In this document: in pieces, positions 2,653-50,704 of the stretch
Numbering within the stretch: the first letter of the stretch is position 1
Layout of the letters: each line of letters starts with the position of its first letter
DNA from: Candidatus Kuenenia stuttgartensis
Lineage (GTDB): Bacteria; Planctomycetota; Planctomycetia; Isosphaerales; Isosphaeraceae
Length of the DNA stretch: 64,000 nt
Assembly (NCBI GenBank): GCA_945865635.1
Contig: CAMBEP010000009.1
Span: forward strand, 62,001-126,000
Reading direction: 5' to 3'
Notes under the pieces: model-generated
The model's input: the letters and a program-made list of their open reading frames with translations, nothing else
Databases searched by the model: none
What the model was told of the DNA's origin: nothing
Translations under genes and position numbers: made by a program

Positions 2653-2676
2653 CTGACTTCAGCCCACGGAAGTCAG
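2653..2676 (-). terminator. Second hairpin overlapping the chitinase stop codon
   Basis: CTGACTTC (2653-2660) and GAAGTCAG (2669-2676) pair perfectly around an 8-base loop, and the stop codon 2673-2675 lies in the stem. It sits directly before the T-tailed terminator and may assist it. Confidence 0.4.
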
Positions 2677-5600
2677 GCTTTTCGGATGGTTGATCCAATG
2701 ATGCCCGGTGTGGTTGATCCACCAGTCATGGTTCCATTAAAGCCAAACTTTAATGTGCCACCATTAGCTAGCGAACCATTCCACGAAAGGCTCTTGACGG
2801 TGTATCGTGTGCCAATGTGGCTCACGATATCCGCATTCCAAATCGATGTGATATCAAAGTTTGAGTCAAATTCGAGCACCCAGCCACTGCTGATGTTCGA
2901 TCCCGTAGTGTTTTTGACTGTGATTTCACCGCCAAAGCCTGGGAACCAGGTACCAGTCACAGCCAGAACGGCGGCTCCCGAAGACGCTGGAGGAGCGGCT
3001 GGAGAATCATCATTCTTGATAGTAATTGTGGAAACCGACTTCAGTAAGTTAGCGTTTGTCGCATTACTGAGATTTAACTGAAAAGTCTCATCGGCTTCAT
3101 TGACGGTGTCGCCATTAATGGTGACATTTACGGTTTTCATGGTCTCGCCAGGTGCGAAAGTCACCAAGCCTGTTGCGGATTTATAGTCATTCCCAACAAT
3201 TGTGGCCGTTCCATTGAGAGTGGCATAAGTCACGGAAATGGACTTGTCAGACATCTTAGATAAAGTCAGGGTCACGGTGGCCAGACTTGTCCCCGAATTG
3301 CCCTCATTTAATGAGACATCCGTGGCAGAAATTGAAGGCAATGTTGGCTGATTGGATTTCAACTGGGATGCCGCATAGCCGACCAGACTATCTGGGCTAT
3401 TGCTATTGTGCACGTCTCCGTCGAGCTCCCAGAACATCATGCCGCCGTAGTCGTTGGCGATAATGGAATCGATCTTTTTACCGAGACTGGTTTTATCCTC
3501 AAACGTAGAGAACCAGCCCCCTCCAACACCGGGAGCATATACATACGGAACTTGAGAAACATTATCACGATAGAGTTTGTAAGTCGCAGGTTGTGTTTGC
3601 AACTTGTTCAACAGGTCGTTGTAATCAATCATGCCAGGTTCCCATGTGCCCGCCCCTGCACCGGTCGAATTCTGGAACAGTCCATCGCCATTTGGGCCCG
3701 CTGCAACACCTTGCCACGTTCGGCCATACAAGGGGGCACCCATGATCAATTTTTCCTTTGGTACACCAGCCGCAGCATAGGCCTGCATGGTGTAATCAAT
3801 ATTATACTTGGTATCAATTGCATTCTGACTGGCTGGATTGACATATAAAGGCGCATTATGACCAGTCTGGGTTTCCCAGGCTCCGTGATAGTCATAACTC
3901 ATGACATTAAACCAGTCAAGCGATTTGGCCATATCAGCAAGCTCGAAATTGGCCATTTTGTCATAACCTGCCGGAGAAGCCACTGTAAGCAAATAATGCT
4001 TTCCACTAATGGCTTCCTGAGCATTGAATGCAGATCGGACAGCTTGAAGAAGCAAAGTATAATTATGCTTATCCTCAGGGCGGTTCTTATTGGTGTCCAA
4101 ACCACCAGAAACTGGATATTCCCAATCTAGATCCGCTCCGTCAAAACCATATTGATTGACAAATCGGACAAGTGAATCCGCAAACTTCTTGCGGGACGAA
4201 TCTGTCAGGGCTGCATCTGAGAAGGCACTTGAAAGAGTCCATCCGCCAACAGAGATTTCCACTTTCAAATTTGGGTTTGCGGCTTTGAGCTTGGTAATCT
4301 GATTGAAATTCCCCTTGACGGGTTGATCCCAAGTATCACCTGGGTAAATTTTCTCAACGGCGGCGTAGGAATCGAACAGGCCAACCTCGCCAGTGGAATT
4401 GATCTGTGCAAAGGCATAGTTCAGGACTGTCAATTTGTCGACAGGTACGTCGGAAATATTATATTGACGACCATAAATGCCCCATTCGGCAAAATAACCG
4501 ACCACCTGCTTGATGGAATTTCCGGTTGCAGGAGGAATTGGGTTTGCGTCATCGTTGATGATTGTACCTGTGCCAGTGGAACTTGCAATAATCGCCCCGA
4601 CAGCCCCAGAAATGGTTAATTTGAAAGTCTCATCAGGTTCATAGGTGGTGTCTCCATAGATATTCACCGAGATCGTTTTGATCAATTCACCTGGGTTGAA
4701 ATTGATTACACCGCTTGTTCCAATATAATCAGTACCATTCGTGGCAGTGCCATCACTTGTAGAATAGTTCACAGTGATTCCATTGACAGAGGCCGCCGAA
4801 AGTGTGACAGTGTAAACCAACGGCACAGTTCCGCTGTTGCCTTCATTTACAGATACCGAGTTGACCACAAGCGTTGGTAACGGTGGGGCTGGTGCGGTAT
4901 CGTCGTTGATGATCAAACCTGTCACGGACGGTGTGGAAATTGTCGCATTGATTGCATTTGTGAGGGTAAGGCCGAACGACTCATCATTTTCATAATCTGT
5001 ATCGCCATTGATGATCACAGAAATCGTTTTAGATTTCTCACCAGGTGCGAATGTCAAAGTGCCGTTGCTGGCCAAATAATCGCTGCCGGCTTTGGCAGAG
5101 ATGTCATTGGTGGCATATTGCATCGTGATTGTGCTTGATGATGCGGACGAAAGGCTTACCGTAAAGTTTAAAGACTTCGTGCCTGACTGGCCCTCAGCAA
5201 TGCTTGTAGACGATGTTGAAAAGGCTGGCAGAATGACCACCGGCGGTGCATTGGTGGAACTTAATAAAATCGGGTTTTTGAGATAGGCTTCGGCCTTGGT
5301 GATCCACCAGTAGCCATCGGTTGGAGGTGTTCCAACAGATGTCGTGCTGTCGCCTACACCAGCCCCGAATAGTAGTGTGGTAATGCCACTGGAAAGGGCT
5401 TCGTTGATATGTTCATTCCAACTCACAGTGGTACCGCTAACAGAAACATCAGGATCGCCTGCCATATTTGTTCCAAAATAACTGGCTCGGCTGGCGGTGG
5501 TGGTGAATGTATCTCCAAAGAAATAACTTGGAGCAGAATCTTCATAATGCTGGGTTGTATTATTCAGATCCGTAAACTTGCCGGAAACGTCGTATGGATT

Positions 5601-8015
5601 TGTCGTTGTCGTACCATTGATGTGACCGACTGGCAATTGCCAAAGGGTGATCGGCAGGTTTGTATTTGTATGTAGGGTTTTGGCGAAGAGCAGATAATTG
5701 CTCCAGTGATCGGCATTCCAGAACCATGTGGAATTGGCTGGATTGGCTGCTGCACCGTTTTGTGCGCCAGCATCAAGGCCATATTTGTCGATTGAAACAA
5801 AGTTTGCACCTGAATCAAGAATTCCTGCCGACTTGTAGTAATCGGCGATAGAATTTGCTGTGTCTGCAATCTTCTGTCGTCCAGCAGCCCAGCCCATTGT
5901 GTCGGTTGCTTTGATAATGCCATTACCGGGAGTGTTGGGGGATGCCCACAAATTCACCTGCCAGCCGAACCGAATGGCTGGCGTGATTTTATGAATCGAG
6001 AAATTGATTGCTTTTACCAGTCCACTGACATTATTGGCAAAGGCTGGATCCGTATTTGCATTTAAAAGGCCAGAATCATAAACTGCCGATGTCACGGCAG
6101 AAATCTGGTCGGGAGTCTTCCCGGAATTCTGCATCATATAACCGAGAAAATCCGGTTCGAGCAGTAAACCAACCGGCCAGTCTGAGGACTGCGACTTAAT
6201 GGTCTCCAGGGTGAATTTCAAATCTGTGAAATATGCCTTCATATAGGCAGGATCTTGAATATGTTGCAGGTCGGTGGTGTAGCTTTCTCCACCGTCTGGA
6301 ATATTGTACCAGACGAAATAAGGGATCACACCAAGTTTCTGGCTTTCCCGGATATAGGTGGTCAGTCTTTCCCCATCGACAGAAGACCAGGTTCGCCAGC
6401 CATTGACAGGCCCACCATTTAAATAAATATACCGAATATCCATCTGCTTGTTCTGAACAGGACTTTCGTAAGACCTCCAGAAAGCCAGGTTCGACGGAGT
6501 ATCTTCACTGACACTGCCCAATGCAACTGTAGAAGGCCAACCAGGCAGGGTTCCGTCAGCATTTCTGACAGTCACACCAAACCATCGGGCTTCTCCAGTG
6601 ACGGAGTCTTTAATCATTACCGATGCGCGGCCAGCCTTTAATCCGTCCAGGTGTAATTTACCGTCAATGCTGATGCTGACCTTGACCACATCGGGCGTGT
6701 TGGTATAAGCCTGAAATGTTGTTGATGAAGGCGCATTGAGATTGCTAAATGCAATAACGGTTGCTCCTTGCGATATGATTGTTGATGCAGCTTGTGAGTC
6801 AGTTGGATCAAGGCTGGCGATTCGAATTGGGCTTGCTCCGCCAAAAACTCTAACCAGAGCATCGCTACGTGTCGTTCCGCTTCCGTTATCCACGACGACT
6901 TCATACTTGCTTGCACCATAGGCCCGTGATATTTGTGTCGTGGCAGTCTGCGATCCTGTGGTATTCGTTGATATATTGGCAGAATAAATTAAGTTTCCGT
7001 TTTCATAAAGTGACCATTTTGTCGCTTGTGTTCCTGACCAGATTGCAAATGACGCTTCGTATGTATTCGGGGCACCACCGATAACGGCGTCTACACGAAT
7101 AGTTGGCTTGTTAGGTGCAGTTGTCACGGGTGGAGCGACAACCCCGCCTCCACCAGATGTCCCGCCATTGTTGGTAACATTGACAGGTGATCCATTGAAA
7201 AAATAATTCGATGGATAAACATTCGACGGACCGTTGGCAGAGAGGCCGATCGTGGCGGATGCACCAGGTGTCAGCGTACCATTCCAGCCAGCATCTTTAA
7301 TGGTTACAGAGCCTGTGGATGGACCTGTCAGCGTGGAATTCCAGACAGAACTGATGGTATTTGTGGTGTCCATCTTTAATTGCCATCCGGTAATGGTAGA
7401 GGTACTGGAATTGGTTATCTTGATTTCTGCATTGTAGCCTCCGGTCCACGTGGATGTCACGTTATAAGCCACAATTACAGAAGTAGTTGCACTCGGGGGT
7501 GTTACTGATCCACCACCTGTTGATCCGGTTTTAGAATCAAGATTCCACTTTAATAAAGGGTTGGTCACTTTGGCTGCAAGTGGACCAGTTGATCCGGTGG
7601 CCACGAAACCAAATTTCGCTGTTGCGCTTGATTCCAGCTTGGTCGCATAGCTTTCGGGAGCGACAGTGTATCTTGTTCCGACATGTCTAACAATGTGTCC
7701 GCCCCAAATCGATGTGATATTATCGGCCAGGTCGAATTGAAACTGATAATCGTCGATCCAGGTTGTCTGTCGGTTGGTTACGGAGATTTCAGCCTGATAA
7801 CCGCCACCCCAATTGTTTTGAGTGGTCCATGCAGTAGGTGGATTGGGGTCAGTGCCGCTCAATAACTGGCGTACTTCAAGCGTGGAATTATCTAGTCTGA
7901 AAGTGTTAAATTCGAAAAGCCTTCGGCTTGGCCGTCCTTTGGGCTTCTGATTTATGAGCCCGGTACTATGGAATGTACGAAGAAACCGGGTTAATTCGTT
8001 ATGATTTCTAGACAT
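2673..8015 (-). CDS. Giant secreted modular chitinase (CBM2, GH18, Calx-beta) with an extra unassigned domain
   Basis: This 1780-residue extracellular polysaccharidase hydrolyses chitin-type beta-1,4 linkages. In order: LEPR-XLL-like motif LEVRQLLSG (46-54); two CBM2-type binding modules (about 61-157 and 178-282); a chitinase-N-terminal/Fn3-like domain (300-392); a bacterial Ig-like domain (395-485); an unassigned region of about 430 residues (488-915) with TIM-barrel-like segments such as LLLEPDFLGYMM; two Calx-beta domains (925-1158); a GH18 domain (1168-1555) with SVGGW and DGADLDWE, catalytic acid E1299, plus MSYDYHG; a third Calx-beta (1558-1672); and a C-terminal CBM2 (1681-1770). ATG 8013-8015 is the start. 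CBM2 modules suggest binding to cellulose or chitin. The LEPR-type N-terminus replaces a classical signal peptide. Confidence 0.9.
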   Translation of the reverse strand: MSRNHNELTRFLRTFHSTGLINQKPKGRPSRRLFEFNTFRLDNSTLEVRQLLSGTDPNPPTAWTTQNNWGGGYQAEISVTNRQTTWIDDYQFQFDLADNITSIWGGHIVRHVGTRYTVAPESYATKLESSATAKFGFVATGSTGPLAAKVTNPLLKWNLDSKTGSTGGGSVTPPSATTSVIVAYNVTSTWTGGYNAEIKITNSSTSTITGWQLKMDTTNTISSVWNSTLTGPSTGSVTIKDAGWNGTLTPGASATIGLSANGPSNVYPSNYFFNGSPVNVTNNGGTSGGGGVVAPPVTTAPNKPTIRVDAVIGGAPNTYEASFAIWSGTQATKWSLYENGNLIYSANISTNTTGSQTATTQISRAYGASKYEVVVDNGSGTTRSDALVRVFGGASPIRIASLDPTDSQAASTIISQGATVIAFSNLNAPSSTTFQAYTNTPDVVKVSISIDGKLHLDGLKAGRASVMIKDSVTGEARWFGVTVRNADGTLPGWPSTVALGSVSEDTPSNLAFWRSYESPVQNKQMDIRYIYLNGGPVNGWRTWSSVDGERLTTYIRESQKLGVIPYFVWYNIPDGGESYTTDLQHIQDPAYMKAYFTDLKFTLETIKSQSSDWPVGLLLEPDFLGYMMQNSGKTPDQISAVTSAVYDSGLLNANTDPAFANNVSGLVKAINFSIHKITPAIRFGWQVNLWASPNTPGNGIIKATDTMGWAAGRQKIADTANSIADYYKSAGILDSGANFVSIDKYGLDAGAQNGAAANPANSTWFWNADHWSNYLLFAKTLHTNTNLPITLWQLPVGHINGTTTTNPYDVSGKFTDLNNTTQHYEDSAPSYFFGDTFTTTASRASYFGTNMAGDPDVSVSGTTVSWNEHINEALSSGITTLLFGAGVGDSTTSVGTPPTDGYWWITKAEAYLKNPILLSSTNAPPVVILPAFSTSSTSIAEGQSGTKSLNFTVSLSSASSSTITMQYATNDISAKAGSDYLASNGTLTFAPGEKSKTISVIINGDTDYENDESFGLTLTNAINATISTPSVTGLIINDDTAPAPPLPTLVVNSVSVNEGNSGTVPLVYTVTLSAASVNGITVNYSTSDGTATNGTDYIGTSGVINFNPGELIKTISVNIYGDTTYEPDETFKLTISGAVGAIIASSTGTGTIINDDANPIPPATGNSIKQVVGYFAEWGIYGRQYNISDVPVDKLTVLNYAFAQINSTGEVGLFDSYAAVEKIYPGDTWDQPVKGNFNQITKLKAANPNLKVEISVGGWTLSSAFSDAALTDSSRKKFADSLVRFVNQYGFDGADLDWEYPVSGGLDTNKNRPEDKHNYTLLLQAVRSAFNAQEAISGKHYLLTVASPAGYDKMANFELADMAKSLDWFNVMSYDYHGAWETQTGHNAPLYVNPASQNAIDTKYNIDYTMQAYAAAGVPKEKLIMGAPLYGRTWQGVAAGPNGDGLFQNSTGAGAGTWEPGMIDYNDLLNKLQTQPATYKLYRDNVSQVPYVYAPGVGGGWFSTFEDKTSLGKKIDSIIANDYGGMMFWELDGDVHNSNSPDSLVGYAASQLKSNQPTLPSISATDVSLNEGNSGTSLATVTLTLSKMSDKSISVTYATLNGTATIVGNDYKSATGLVTFAPGETMKTVNVTINGDTVNEADETFQLNLSNATNANLLKSVSTITIKNDDSPAAPPASSGAAVLAVTGTWFPGFGGEITVKNTTGSNISSGWVLEFDSNFDITSIWNADIVSHIGTRYTVKSLSWNGSLANGGTLKFGFNGTMTGGSTTPGIIGSTIRKA

Positions 8016-41098: not shown

Positions 41099-44000
41099 AT
41101 GAGCCCACAGCAGCCAGCGATGACCAGCCGAATTTTCAGGGCAATTTCAAGCAAGCCTGCGCGACAGACGCTTTCAAGCGGCCGTCGGCTTCGGCAACTG
41201 AGTCTTTGTGTTGAGTTGATGGAATCGAGACAATTACTGACTTTACCGGCAGTTCTAACGATTCCACTGATTCCCGATCTGGATCAGTTTGGCGATCAGG
41301 TTCTGGTGGTTCAGGCATTTGGGGTACCCGAGCGCGCGGCACTGGGCATATTTGATTCTGGCGCATCGGCGGTCACCTTTGCTGCGCAAGATCAAGATTT
41401 CTTTGCAATGGTCGATGTCGGCCCGATACCGATTAAGGTTGTAGGGGGTGCATTGGCAGAAGGCATTGGCGGTGTGATTATTGGAGATGTTTCCGAATCC
41501 GGTACGATTTATTCGGATGGGATGCACTCATTCGACTTGACATTTGACGATATGGGCTTTCCCCAATTCAATATTGCGCTGAGCGATACCGCAATTGCGA
41601 CTCCGAACATTCAGGCGTTTGTCGGCACGGACAACTCGCCCTTGCTGCCAACGATCACCGGCACACCGGCTTTGAATCCATCACCCAAATACCCGGATGG
41701 AGCGGCCGCACATGTCAAGATGCAAGGTGCCATGCTGGATTTTTCAGATATCTTTCCGGGTCTGGTGATACCCTTCCCGGATCTGACATTTGCAAACCCA
41801 GGTGACACGATTGTTTATGACTCATCCAATATCGATATTTATGAAACGGTCTATTTGCCATTGATCCCATTCGGAGCCGACAATTCCAGTGACCCAGGAG
41901 ACTTGATTACGGAATCACTCCTCTGGTTGATCCCAAATATCACAAGCACCTATGGCGACATGACCTCTGGCAAGGGCAATTTTCTTTTTGATACGGGTGC
42001 CCAGCTCTCGGTGATTTCGACCGACATGGCGTTATCTCTTGGTTTGGATCTAGGCAATCCAACGACTTCCATCGACGTGCAAGGTGTGGCTGGAGCCGAA
42101 ACGGTATCGGGATTTACACTGAAAACCCTGGAGATTCAGCGCTCCGATGGAGGGATTCTGGAATTTACTGATGTGCCGGTTTATGTGCTTGACGTTGCTC
42201 CTGGCATTGATGGCATTTTTGGGATGAATCTCTTGAATGTGGCCAACGAGTTCGTTTTTGATCCAAAATCACCGACAGGCCCGCAGCTATCGATCGCGTA
42301 TTTTGCAAATCCAGACCGGGGAGCACCTGCTGACGACAGTGGAATGGGCGATTTGGCGGCACTCTTCAAACTGGTTGGTTTAAATGCACTTGGTGGAGCT
42401 TTGGGCGGAACACGTTCTGTTCCACGATTTGATTTGCCAAAGATTGGAACCACAACGAGTTTAAATGTCACGAATACGTCAGTGGAATTTGGTGGGAACT
42501 GGTCTCTCAATGCAGCCGTTGGTTTCCCTGCGGGGAGTACTGTTCCAACGGGTACCATGAATTTTCAGAAGAACGGGGTCGCATTTGCCAGCCCTGGTCT
42601 TGATGCTCAAGGGAAAGCGAGCTGGAGCTCATCGGGAACACCATGGGAGCCAGGCACTTATCAAATTGCATCCTCCTATTCGGGCGATCAGAAATATGGC
42701 TCGTCGGTTTCGACCTCCACCACCATTGAGATCCACAAAACTGCGAGTAGCCTGACCCTAGCAGGTAAAGGCGTGGATTATGGTCAAGCCATAAGCCTAA
42801 CGGGTAAAATGACGACGGGGAGCGGTGTTTCGGTTTTGAATTCTTCGATTGAGCTGAAAATAGACGGTGTTGTTTTTGGTCATACAACGGCCGCTGCGGA
42901 CGGATCGTATGGATTTAGTGTTTCTGGCCTTGGTGCGGGCTCTCACAGTTTTATAGCGACATTTGCGGAATCAAGTCACGTGAAGGGCTCAAGTTCATCG
43001 ACGTCGACCATAGAGGTCTCAAAATTGTCGAGTAGCCTGACCCTAGCAGGTACAGGCGTGGATTATGGTCAAGCCATAAGCCTGACGGGTAAAATGACGA
43101 CGGGGAGCGGTGTTTCGGTTTTGAATTCTTCGATTGAGCTGAAAGTAGACGGTGTTGTTTTTGGTAATACAACGGCCGCTGCGGACGGATCGTATGGATT
43201 TAGTGTTTCTGGCCTTGGTGCGGGCTCTCACAGTTTTATAGCGACATTTTCTGGATCAAACAACTTCAAGGCGGCAAGTTCAGCGGTTGTTAACGCCCAA
43301 GTGGCGAAAGCATCAACCTCATTGATATTGATGGCAAGTGGAACACAAATCAAAACTGGCCAATCGCTTGTATTGAGCGGACAGCTTTCGTCCAATACAA
43401 ACGCTAAGTTTGTGGATTCGTCGGTTCAGATGAAGTTGGACGGAGCCCTGAGCCCAATTGCAACTAGAGCTGCTGCGGATGGTAGTTATACGATGAGCCT
43501 TACGAATCTTGGAGTCGGTTTACACACAATTCAGATGGTATTTGCTGAGGCAAGCAATTTCAAAGGTTCAAGCTCTGCAATGGTTTCGGTCGTTGTTTCG
43601 AAAGCGGCTGGGGTTCTCGTAGTTGTGGCGCCAACGGCAGCGGTATTTGGCCAGAAAGTCGCCTTGGTAGCCCAGGTGGGCCAAGATCAGGCAGTGGCTT
43701 ACGAAAATGCGACAGTCACATTTTATGACGACAAGACAATTCTTGGAACGTCAAAGATGCAATCCGGCAAGGCAACCTGGAATTACACTGTCAGTAAAGC
43801 GGGCCTGACGCTTCACCTCCTAGCGAAACTGGCAGAAACCACAATGGGAATCGCTGTTTCAAGCCCGATGGCGATGGTCAGCACATCGAAGGCCAGCACC
43901 AATCTGGCTTGGACGATCGTTAAAAAACCTGGTAATGTACAGGAATGGACGATTACGGTTTCACCAGCCTCGCCAGGCACAGGCAAACCAAGCGGAACTT

Positions 44001-44155
44001 TGAAGTTGACGATCGGAGGCGCCAAGCCGACGACAAAAACCCTCAAGCTTGCCGCTGGTAAGACTGTTTACAAATTCAGTACAACGGCGACCAAGCCCAA
44101 ATCGATAACATTTACAGGCGACACCAATTTTCTGGGATCATCCAGAGCCGTCTAA
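41099..44155 (+). CDS. LEPR-XLL surface protein with two aspartic-protease motifs and Ig-like repeats
   Basis: The 1018-residue protein has the LEPR-XLL-like motif MESRQLLTL (41-49). Residues about 70-410 contain two retropepsin/pepsin-type catalytic segments: GIFDSGASAVTF (D86) and FLFDTGAQLSVIS (D298), each followed by a hydrophobic-Gly stretch (GGVIIG, GIFGMNLLN), as in the flap/second psi loop of the family. This could be a bilobal aspartic protease. The rest (about 450-1018) is a series of Ig-like repeats of about 90-95 residues, two nearly identical. The start is ATG 41099 with GGAG upstream. A secreted or surface location is inferred. Protease activity is not proved; the first lobe has DSG rather than DTG. 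Confidence 0.75.
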   Translation: MSPQQPAMTSRIFRAISSKPARQTLSSGRRLRQLSLCVELMESRQLLTLPAVLTIPLIPDLDQFGDQVLVVQAFGVPERAALGIFDSGASAVTFAAQDQDFFAMVDVGPIPIKVVGGALAEGIGGVIIGDVSESGTIYSDGMHSFDLTFDDMGFPQFNIALSDTAIATPNIQAFVGTDNSPLLPTITGTPALNPSPKYPDGAAAHVKMQGAMLDFSDIFPGLVIPFPDLTFANPGDTIVYDSSNIDIYETVYLPLIPFGADNSSDPGDLITESLLWLIPNITSTYGDMTSGKGNFLFDTGAQLSVISTDMALSLGLDLGNPTTSIDVQGVAGAETVSGFTLKTLEIQRSDGGILEFTDVPVYVLDVAPGIDGIFGMNLLNVANEFVFDPKSPTGPQLSIAYFANPDRGAPADDSGMGDLAALFKLVGLNALGGALGGTRSVPRFDLPKIGTTTSLNVTNTSVEFGGNWSLNAAVGFPAGSTVPTGTMNFQKNGVAFASPGLDAQGKASWSSSGTPWEPGTYQIASSYSGDQKYGSSVSTSTTIEIHKTASSLTLAGKGVDYGQAISLTGKMTTGSGVSVLNSSIELKIDGVVFGHTTAAADGSYGFSVSGLGAGSHSFIATFAESSHVKGSSSSTSTIEVSKLSSSLTLAGTGVDYGQAISLTGKMTTGSGVSVLNSSIELKVDGVVFGNTTAAADGSYGFSVSGLGAGSHSFIATFSGSNNFKAASSAVVNAQVAKASTSLILMASGTQIKTGQSLVLSGQLSSNTNAKFVDSSVQMKLDGALSPIATRAAADGSYTMSLTNLGVGLHTIQMVFAEASNFKGSSSAMVSVVVSKAAGVLVVVAPTAAVFGQKVALVAQVGQDQAVAYENATVTFYDDKTILGTSKMQSGKATWNYTVSKAGLTLHLLAKLAETTMGIAVSSPMAMVSTSKASTNLAWTIVKKPGNVQEWTITVSPASPGTGKPSGTLKLTIGGAKPTTKTLKLAAGKTVYKFSTTATKPKSITFTGDTNFLGSSRAV
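42744..43250 (+). repeat. Tandem 285-bp DNA repeat inside the Ig-like region
   Basis: The unit beginning at 42744 (CGAGTAGCCTGACCC) recurs at 43029, a 285-bp (95-codon) period. The first about 222 bp of each copy differ at only a handful of bases; after that the copies diverge. In-frame duplication of one Ig-like domain, recent relative to the other repeats in the gene. Confidence 0.9.
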
Positions 44156-45244: not shown

Positions 45245-46492
45245 ATGCTCACGTTCATCAAACAGGTCCTCGGCAATTCGTCGCAATCGCAAACCCGCAG
45301 CCGCAAAAACCGCGCCGTCCGGTTGGGTGCTGAAGTCATGGAAGACCGCAAGCTCTTCGCCATCGGTGCCGAACTCGTCGTTCCATTGAACACGGCCAAC
45401 CATGAATATGAATCAGCCAACGCCTCAAGCTGGAACGGCACACACGCCGTGGTCTGGACCGTCAGAAACGCTACCACCGGCGAACGAGATATCATGGGCC
45501 GCGTCTTCAATACCGGAGGCGCACCGTTGACGCCCGACTTTGTCGTCAATAATCAGGTCGGGCAGGATGACTCCAACCCCACCGTGGCCATGGATAGCAA
45601 TGGTAGAATGTGGGTCGCCTGGGATCGAACCACGGCTGGCTCACGCGATGTGCTTGCAACCAGGATCAGCAACGCCGGAGTCAACCTTCTCGGTGCCCCA
45701 AACACATTTATTCCAATTGCGTCTTCTCTGAGAGAGGAATACGACCCCTCAATCGGTTGTAACAGGGCCGGCGATTTCACCGTCAGCTACACCGTGGACA
45801 TGGGTGCCGGTAATACCGACATCTACCAGGCCCGATTCACCGCAGCAGGGGCTCCGCTGGGAACTGTTGCAGTCGCCAACACAGCCCAGCCTGAACGTGC
45901 CTCGTCCCTCTCCCGCAACCTTATCGGCGACTATGTCATTGCCTGGCAAACCGATGGCAGGCTTACCACAGGGGCTCCGAACAGCGATATCCTCGCCCTG
46001 AAATTCAATAATGCCGGTGCTGTTGTCACCCCCGTCAGACCAGTCGCTACAACGGCCGCTTTGATGGAAACCATGCCCAGCGCATCGATCGACCAAAACG
46101 GCAATAGCATCTTCGCCTGGGAATCCGGGCCGTCCACAGTCAGCCGCGATGTTCTTGCCCGCCGAATGAACCCCGCCGGTGCGCTTCAGCCCACGTTTGT
46201 CATCTCGAATGTGGCCGCCGCCGAAGAAACCCGGCCCTCAGTTGCCCTGGCACCCACAAGTGGCCAGTTTGCTGTTGTTTATGAATCCACAGCGGGTGGT
46301 GTGACTTCGTCATACGTCAAAGAATTCAACGCGGCCAACGCCAATGTCCTGACTCTCAATATGGGTGCCAATCGCAACACACCCGTCGTCTCCGTTGGCC
46401 CTAACAAGCAATACATCGTCACCTACACCAACCTGATCGGTTCGGCCTCCGACCTCGGCCTGGGTGTCCGCCGCCGCCACGGCCAGCTTTGA
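45245..46492 (+). CDS. LEPR-XLL surface protein with beta-propeller-like repeats
   Basis: The 415-residue protein starts with a basic leader ([13 protein letters not shown]) and the motif [10 protein letters not shown] (about 32-41), a variant of the LEPR-XLL pattern. The body is a series of 45-50-residue repeats with [12 protein letters not shown] and similar turns (for example [32 protein letters not shown]). These resemble beta-propeller or calcium-binding blades. No enzyme motif is recognised. It is bounded by strong terminators on both sides, so it is a single-gene unit, probably secreted. Confidence 0.8.
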
Positions 46493-48568: not shown

Positions 48569-50704
48569 TTACTGAACCAGACGATTCCTCAGCCAGGTCA
48601 AAAAGTCGATGTTCGACAGAAGCCCGATATGGGTCACTGGCCCGTTGGTGGTTGTAAATGTGATGCCAGGAGGGGGGGTTATGCTTGGTGAGCCCCAAAC
48701 CTGAAGTGTAATTTTCAAGTCGTTCGGGAAGACACTTAAAAGCGAGTCCAAAGGCACGACCCCATCCCCGACATCGGTTGTTGTTGTCGACTGGTACCAG
48801 ACCTGATTGTCAACTGTCGGAATTGGGGCGGCCTGTCCGATTGGCCAGACGGTACCCCCAAGCCCGGTTTGCTGAGTCAACTGGGTGATTGTTGTTGTGG
48901 TCACTCCAAACGAAGCCGACGCTTGTGGAATTCGGGCCAGCCATGGACTATTTCCAGCCGTGTTGGCCGCATTCAGGTCCAGCAGCAAGTCAGGTGAAGT
49001 GCCGGGCACCAGATTGACATTCGTCAGGAGGCCGTTGATGGAAAGAAAGTTGGTGTCGGCAATCGTCTGCCGGAAGGACGGGAAATAGAGATGAGCGAAA
49101 ATCAACGGGCTTGGCAACGATGTTGAAGGATCAATAATGGCAGACTGATTGATTGTCACATCCGTGCCCGGAACTGTGGAAGTGCCCGCGGCCACTCCGG
49201 AATAGAGCGGATTCAAGGCCGCCATGACACTGCCTGTGGTGGATCCGAAAGCATCGTTGAAGTCGTTGTTCCAAGGGTTCAGAAATTGCGGAACCCCTTC
49301 ATTTGGAGCACTGACCATGACCAGGCTGTCAACCTGGGGCAATTTCAGAGTGCTGACTCCCACCTCGAAAGTGCTTCCGTAAGCGGGGCTTTGCAGATAG
49401 GCCCTGGCCAGCAGTGATCCGCCACCTACGCCGACGATGTCAACCGAGGTGATGGTCGGGTCATTGGCCACCATCGACGCCAAGACCTGACCAAAATAGC
49501 TGACTTCATAGGCTGGTATCGATTGGGTCATCACTGAAGTCGTGAGATTCGCAAGCGTGCCATCGGCGGCTCCATCTGTCGGTGCCTGAGCCAGTCGCCA
49601 GTCGTAAGGGACTGCAAAAAGGTCGCGGCCTGGTTGATATCCAGTCGCAGAAAGCGATGCAAACAGGGGTGTGTAATCGTTGGTCAGCATCAATTGGCTG
49701 GCTGGTGTTCCGCGATTGCCATAAAACGCACTTAAACCCGCCGGAGTCTGATTCCTGGGCACCGTTCCGCCGAGGTCAGGCAACACCACAACCGCCACTG
49801 GCAGTCGATTCACGCTGATAAACGTTTCAAGCGACTGACCGAATGAGTCGCGAGCAGAGACACTGATGGAATTTGAACCAAGCGCGACTGGAAGTGCAAT
49901 TTGAGACAAACCATTGACACCTACCACCCCTCCTGTTTCCGTGCTTGTCGGCAAGCTCAGGTTTGTCGCCAGAAATCCGGCGCCAGGTGAACCCGACAAA
50001 ACCAATGCAATATTGGACGATCGCACATAACCATGAAATACCGGAGTGACCGAAGGATCAATCGCAGAGGCAAACGCCAAAGGCCGAATGTTGGAAACCA
50101 CTCCCAGATTCTGACGCGCCAGAATGATGTCACGGTTGGCTACCTTACCCGACCCATCATAATCGGCCGACTGATAAACATTGAGCGGAACGGACGCAGG
50201 GTTGGAGATCATCTGTCGAATCAATTTAATGTCGGTATTGTCAACCTTCATGTCGCCATTGGCATCGCCCACAATCTGAATGGAAAGGTGATAGGAACCG
50301 ACCCGATTTGACCATCCACCAGAAACTGGAAACGAATACTGGCCAGGATGGAAGTTTACGATTTGGGCATTACGACCAGCAGGAAATTGAAAAACTGTGG
50401 GCAAGGGAATCGGGCGATTGCTGGGCAGAGGATTTACAAACCGGTCCTTCACGGCAGGCCCCATCAAAAGGTCTCCTCCGTCGGATGCCGTCCCAACAAT
50501 TTTCACGGCAATTCCGCCATTACCTGCGTATCGGAAATAAGTTCGATCAAAATTCAGACGCGGCGATGTGGCCTGATTGGGTAGGGCCAGCCGCCCATCG
50601 ACCACGGCAAAAGTGCCGACAGGATCGCCCAGAGCCGTTGGTACGGTTCGACCTTCAAGCTCAACAACAGTCGGGCACATCCGGTGCTTCAAAGACTTGG
50701 CCAT
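48569..50704 (-). CDS. Secreted dockerin plus LCAT-like hydrolase-fold protein, nucleophile Ser missing
   Basis: The 711-residue protein carries an N-terminal motif LEGRTVPTAL (16-25) of the LEPR type. Residues 146-201 look like a type I dockerin with two EF-hand repeats (GDANGDMKVDNTDIKLIRQM and ADYDGSGKVANRDIILARQN). Residues about 310-700 match an LCAT-like alpha/beta hydrolase: VVVLPDLGGT, NDYTPLFASLS, FAVPYDWRLA, DGVVPLDSLLS and THIGLLSN. The usual G-x-S-x-G elbow reads G425-V-G427-G-G429, so the Ser is replaced by Gly (S430 is one beyond). The Asp and His are kept. It may have lost catalysis or use another residue. The start is ATG 50702-50704. Confidence 0.78.
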   Translation of the reverse strand: MAKSLKHRMCPTVVELEGRTVPTALGDPVGTFAVVDGRLALPNQATSPRLNFDRTYFRYAGNGGIAVKIVGTASDGGDLLMGPAVKDRFVNPLPSNRPIPLPTVFQFPAGRNAQIVNFHPGQYSFPVSGGWSNRVGSYHLSIQIVGDANGDMKVDNTDIKLIRQMISNPASVPLNVYQSADYDGSGKVANRDIILARQNLGVVSNIRPLAFASAIDPSVTPVFHGYVRSSNIALVLSGSPGAGFLATNLSLPTSTETGGVVGVNGLSQIALPVALGSNSISVSARDSFGQSLETFISVNRLPVAVVVLPDLGGTVPRNQTPAGLSAFYGNRGTPASQLMLTNDYTPLFASLSATGYQPGRDLFAVPYDWRLAQAPTDGAADGTLANLTTSVMTQSIPAYEVSYFGQVLASMVANDPTITSVDIVGVGGGSLLARAYLQSPAYGSTFEVGVSTLKLPQVDSLVMVSAPNEGVPQFLNPWNNDFNDAFGSTTGSVMAALNPLYSGVAAGTSTVPGTDVTINQSAIIDPSTSLPSPLIFAHLYFPSFRQTIADTNFLSINGLLTNVNLVPGTSPDLLLDLNAANTAGNSPWLARIPQASASFGVTTTTITQLTQQTGLGGTVWPIGQAAPIPTVDNQVWYQSTTTTDVGDGVVPLDSLLSVFPNDLKITLQVWGSPSITPPPGITFTTTNGPVTHIGLLSNIDFLTWLRNRLVQ

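Follow-up and report, generated by a model that had tools for sequence, protein, structure and literature searches.

A predicted single-chain pair of retropepsin lobes on an Ig-like stalk, a probably exported aspartic protease of a planctomycete family

The window analysed here, meaning the whole stretch of DNA at its full length of 64,000 nucleotides, contains a gene whose product is probably an exported and surface-attached aspartic endopeptidase, built as a single-chain retropepsin pseudo-dimer on an Ig stalk. The open reading frame starts with ATG (41099–44155, + strand), encodes 1018 amino acids and lies in an assembly of 5.37 Mb, whose closest relatives mark it as planctomycete. Two retropepsin-type lobes joined in one chain (residues 48–410) would fold as a pseudo-dimer, with D86 and D298 as the catalytic pair beneath two flaps, and no second chain would be needed because these two aspartates would pair within the single chain. 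The six Ig-like repeats that follow (446–1018) may act as a stalk anchoring the enzyme to the cell envelope or matrix. Export would proceed via an LExRxLL-type N-terminus, and the enzyme would then cut or trim extracellular proteins at the surface. Sequence comparison and structural modelling support the kinship of the two lobes, the conservation of both aspartates, the predicted bilobed fold and the Ig tail. The features of the gene are as follows.

41099–44155 (+): whole gene, 1018 aa (open reading frame and translation)
41219–41239 (+): N-terminal MESRQLL motif, residues 41–47, proposed export signature (comparison with three window proteins)
41240–41788 (+): lobe 1 of the protease domain, residues 48–230, boundary approximate (profile match to lobe 2; AF2 model)
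41351–41365 (+): catalytic motif 1, FDSGA, residues 85–89, with Asp86 (D and G invariant in 75/75 rows, for D partly by construction, see below)
41432–41494 (+): flap hairpin 1, residues 112–132 (two AF2 strands; G122 in 70/75)
41654–41662 (+): lobe 1 hydrophobic-Gly motif, ITG, residues 186–188, consensus [AI][IV]G (G188 invariant)
41789–42328 (+): lobe 2 of the protease domain, residues 231–410, boundary approximate (PF13650 and PF13975 at 293–380)
41987–42001 (+): catalytic motif 2, FDTGA, residues 297–301, with Asp298 (D, G and A invariant in 75/75 rows, for D partly by construction)
42065–42139 (+): flap hairpin 2, GVAG, residues 323–347 (two AF2 strands; G332 in 74/75)
42215–42229 (+): lobe 2 hydrophobic-Gly motif, IFGMN, residues 373–377 (G375 invariant; N/D at 377 in 75/75)
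42434–44152 (+): six Big_3_5 Ig-like repeats, residues 446–1018 (Pfam, E 2.5e-50)
42736–43282 (+): recent tandem duplication with a 285 bp unit equal to one Ig repeat, 93% matches (Tandem Repeats Finder)

An earlier note on this DNA had placed the two aspartates at D86 (in FDSGAS) and D298 (in FDTGAQ), each followed by a hydrophobic-Gly segment, and had described a fusion to Ig-like repeats. Translation of the open reading frame reproduced both positions and the spacing of 212 residues, the segments correspond to ITG (186–188) and IFG (373–375), and the six Big_3_5 stretches behind the protease domain passed the Pfam cut-off for PF16640 by a wide margin (169.4 bits against 35.5). The recent 285 bp duplication, together with a repeat region that is longer in the relative L021 than in this gene, indicates that the length of the stalk varies.

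Pfam recognises lobe 2 as PF13650 (Asp_protease_2; E 1.8e-13, 51.4 bits against a cut-off of 24.3) and as PF13975 (gag-asp_proteas; E 1.7e-10, 41.8 bits against 28.2), and gave no match to lobe 1 of this protein alone. When the family alignment was split into halves, however, the lobe 1 and lobe 2 profiles matched each other with a probability of 96.3% (E 1.9e-9, approximately 13% identity), in an alignment that pairs D86 with D298, flap with flap and hydrophobic-Gly motif with hydrophobic-Gly motif. Indeed, in one relative (L038) Pfam itself recognises two PF13650 stretches. Judged by their profiles, the two lobes are of one kind.

Relatives came from an alignment-based scan, which found 151 and from which 80 loci were kept; an earlier, direct scan of genome contigs with the single protein gave no match. 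The family alignment comprises 75 rows, namely 74 of the 80 loci and the window protein. Both aspartates are retained in 78/78 complete relatives (L060 and L099 are cut by contig ends), the lobe 1 count being the less biased one because the search patterns favoured lobe 2, and the invariance of the Asp columns across the 75 rows is partly by construction since rows were picked for both motifs. The psi-loop glycines G188 and G375, neither of which served as a selection criterion, are likewise invariant (75/75). Both aspartates also persist in members with divergent motifs, such as L043 (LDAGA as second motif) and L083 (LDSGG as first), in L031, despite a long insert within lobe 1, and in L036, where masked bases separate the two motifs and each falls in a different reading frame. 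In the relatives L031 (at 3611–6862) and L036, long inserts in lobe 1 show the repeat pattern FxGDAxLSDxDGAYxGFxxxFxSG between the flap and the hydrophobic-Gly motif. Taken together, the match between lobe profiles, the retention of both aspartates and the invariant glycines argue, at the level of sequence, that the two-motif pattern is not chance. Against the close relative L020, dN is 0.10 and 0.15 in the two lobes and 0.36 in the linker and Ig repeats, values that are quoted alone rather than as dN/dS because synonymous sites are near saturation. By these comparisons the catalytic core is conserved and the Ig stalk is diverging.

This pattern bears on whether the domain is still an enzyme. 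Fusion to adhesin-type Ig-like repeats, and a serine at residue 87 of lobe 1 where most aligned rows have threonine, would fit a retropepsin-pair fold that no longer cuts and instead serves a surface adhesin as a module for binding or structure. We regard such a module as improbable, as all complete members, down to approximately 22–25% identity, keep both aspartates and the psi-loop glycines, a retention that would be unexpected for a dead enzyme. Serine in place of threonine is known in active aspartic proteases. An active protease is the reading we carry forward.

The earlier note had read the protein as a two-lobed aspartic protease carrying an Asp in each half and had proposed structure prediction as the check. 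AlphaFold2, run on residues 48–410 with the 75-row alignment, returned a single, confident bilobed fold (pLDDT 95.6, pTM 0.92), which together with the homology supports a single chain folded in this way. In Foldseek searches of the PDB, the model aligned over approximately 400 columns with plasmepsins, renin and cathepsin D, at TM-scores by query of up to 0.52. Matches to single-chain, tethered dimers of HIV-1 protease reached a TM-score by target of 0.68. The rmsd to these templates is large, about 6–12 Å. As a single lobe spans only half of such a dimer, a TM-score of 0.68 suggests that both lobes stand in roughly the same relative position as in the template, and the predicted lobe arrangement accordingly resembles tethered HIV-1 protease within the limits of that rmsd. 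For L061, from the most distant clade, the prediction was similar (pLDDT 86.1, pTM 0.84), and Foldseek ranked the tethered HIV-1 protease dimers first. RloA and its like among the single-lobed bacterial retropepsins form dimers (PMC12239564), which raises the question of whether the lobes here pair between molecules, like homodimeric retropepsins, instead of within one chain. This appears very unlikely, given that AlphaFold2 packs both lobes of one chain together with the high pTM noted above, in an arrangement resembling tethered HIV-1 protease and pepsins, and that both lobes occur in all complete members at mostly similar spacing. Pairing within the chain is therefore retained in what follows.

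The description of the protein as pepsin-like held for its overall shape, and did not hold for its sequence, which is of retropepsin type (PF13650, PF13975, RVP). All 75 aligned sequences match PF13650 and PF13975 (E ≤ 0.01) and 16 of them match the retroviral protease model RVP, whereas pepsin family A1 (PF00026) is matched by none of the 75. A profile search of PDB sequences retrieved Ddi1 and retroviral proteases with weak E-values, and a search with the window protein as a single sequence gave marginal matches only. According to column counts and the model, a DTGA-type motif (D-[ST]-G-A), a GVxG flap motif and a hydrophobic-Gly motif are present in both lobes, and lobe 2 has the consensus I-[IF]-G-M-[ND] at the site where HIV-1 protease has IGRN (PMC11313796). 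For the clan AA model TIGR02281 (DTGA protease), the score stayed below the NCBIfam cut-off (26.3 bits against 57.95).

A true family A1 pepsin, whether derived from eukaryotes or ancient in bacteria, would share the bilobed fold and would explain why the best Foldseek matches include plasmepsins and renin. We consider this origin highly improbable in view of the missing pepsin Pfam match in the 75 sequences, the PDB sequence matches to Ddi1 and retroviral proteases, and the flap motif in each lobe with the IGMN-type motif in lobe 2. With pepsin A1 the protein shares a single bilobed chain in which each lobe supplies one Asp, a likeness limited to shape. Conversely, members of MEROPS retropepsin family A2 have one lobe per chain and are active as dimers, and this protein has two lobes per chain; as predicted, it works like a retropepsin dimer, yet is no classical A2 member. 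The Pfam matches, PDB profile matches, motifs and bilobed model together identify the predicted protein as a fused retropepsin pair, with the shape of pepsin and the parts of a retropepsin. An acid pH optimum is not a given for such an enzyme: alanine following DTG has been associated with a neutral optimum (PMC2761423), yet shewasin D works at acid pH (PMC4814920).

The protein is probably exported, as far as its N-terminus indicates. The MESRQLL motif has no Pfam match, hence the case for export is one of comparison: three other window proteins have LExRxLL-like N-termini (TLEVRQLL, MEDRKLF and LEGRTVP), which we take to be a shared planctomycete export signature. Window reading frames with such a motif are 2673–8015 (−), 41099–44155 (+), 45245–46492 (+) and 48569–50704 (−). 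One of these proteins is a GH18 with CBM2 and Calx-beta domains and is very probably extracellular. The window protein has no PEP-CTERM. Tails differ among its relatives, which carry PEP-CTERM, dockerin-like, FN3/PKD or Ig repeats. Regular expressions found a PEP-CTERM-like C-terminal signal in 12 members and a dockerin-like tail in 33, with PEP-CTERM confirmed by Pfam in L023 and a weak dockerin match in L038. These tails favour export and placement at the surface.

The gene order of HSP70-like, protease, dTDP-sugar epimerase and superoxide dismutase genes is kept in L020, and in L021 as far as its short contig extends. This conserved neighbourhood in the window, L020 and L021 points to no function, substrate or partner. 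The reading frame 45245–46492 (+) has no Pfam match. In L020 the epimerase and dismutase genes are only approximately 120 bp apart with no counterpart between them, hence this frame looks inserted in the window or lost in L020.

The family is large, nearly confined to planctomycetes and apparently uncharacterised. A search with the single protein gave matches in 17 of 392 planctomycete genomes and an alignment-based search in 68 of 392, many of the latter being lobe 2 only and some being other retropepsin-like proteins. The spread is patchy, as most listed genomes of the same class have no family member. The rarity attributed to bacterial pepsin-like proteins in the earlier note stands for true A1 pepsins, but the genome searches show that the window family is not rare in planctomycetes. 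The family spans Planctomycetia and Phycisphaerae, and its tree has one group with the window protein, Pirellulales and Gemmataceae, a second with Phycisphaerae and Sedimentisphaerales, and a third that includes L061, a member with FN3 repeats. The names of two rows point to other phyla, L044 to Victivallales and L047 to Acidimicrobiales; each comes from a metagenome bin and may be misbinned. Six contigs titled Candidatus Kuenenia stuttgartiensis (L020, L021, L035, L061, L078 and L086) are scattered across the tree, and such widely separate places make these titles probably unreliable. In one genome (G000, contig C72) two adjacent PF13650 matches occur (L101 and L102), and the one open reading frame present in both loci encodes 313 aa, comprising one VDTGA lobe and a PDZ-like terminal part.

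A more specific role can be proposed, namely that of a protease dedicated to maturation at the planctomycete surface, trimming exoproteins with the same export signals via an asymmetric active site. Targets would be exoproteins marked by the LExRxLL N-terminus or by PEP-CTERM or dockerin-like tails, and the asymmetry would go back to a fusion of two retropepsin lobes that occurred in nature, separately from eukaryotic pepsins. We hold this role to be unlikely, although conceivable; if it were true, the family would offer a living parallel to the duplication and fusion from which pepsin is proposed to have originated.

The fold and the half-domain of the window family were already recognised, and what is added here is an uncharacterised family and an evolutionary angle. 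No paper on it was found in the searched, incomplete collection of literature; the exoprotein ZepA, which came up in that search, is unrelated. It thus appears that an exported planctomycete family of fused retropepsin lobes with exchangeable surface tails had so far not been described. The predictions suggest that planctomycetes display an aspartic protease on their surface, and the family provides many natural single-chain retropepsin pairs for expression, comparison and structure solution.

The fused retropepsin pair is not new as such, given PDZ-type bilobed proteins in the same phylum and a structural match of L061 to a Bacteroides protein. The PDZ-type proteins (L108, L109 and L019) likewise have two PF13650 lobes per chain, with D-[ST]-G-A motifs 218–219 residues apart in L108 and L109, compared with 212 here. 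They differ in a terminal PDZ domain, where the window family has Ig, PEP-CTERM or dockerin-like tails, and in that Pfam plainly recognises both of their lobes. The putative endopeptidase of Bacteroides fragilis (PDB 9iy9), a chain of 420 residues, gave a marginal sequence match to lobe 2 of the window protein and a structural match to L061 over 337 columns, at merely 10% identity by structure. Engineered tethered HIV-1 protease dimers (PDB 1hvc, 2o40) have two retropepsin lobes per chain in a catalytic arrangement that the predicted fold resembles; these are man-made with near-identical lobes, whereas the window protein would be a natural fusion of diverged lobes. RloA and APRc also possess a bacterial retropepsin-type lobe with a DTG motif, but are single-lobed (PMC12239564, PMC4140852). 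Shewasins, the bacterial A1 pepsins, are bilobed single-chain aspartic proteases as is the window protein, but of family A1 sequence (PMC2761423, PMC4814920). Shewasin D is acid-active and accumulates in the cytoplasm (PMC4814920), whereas the window family looks exported. Pepsin itself is thought to have arisen when a retropepsin-like half was duplicated and fused, a step that is hard to study because its lobes have kept almost no sequence likeness (PMC2761423); in the window family, profile comparison still aligns the two lobes within a chain, and both catalytic aspartates persist.
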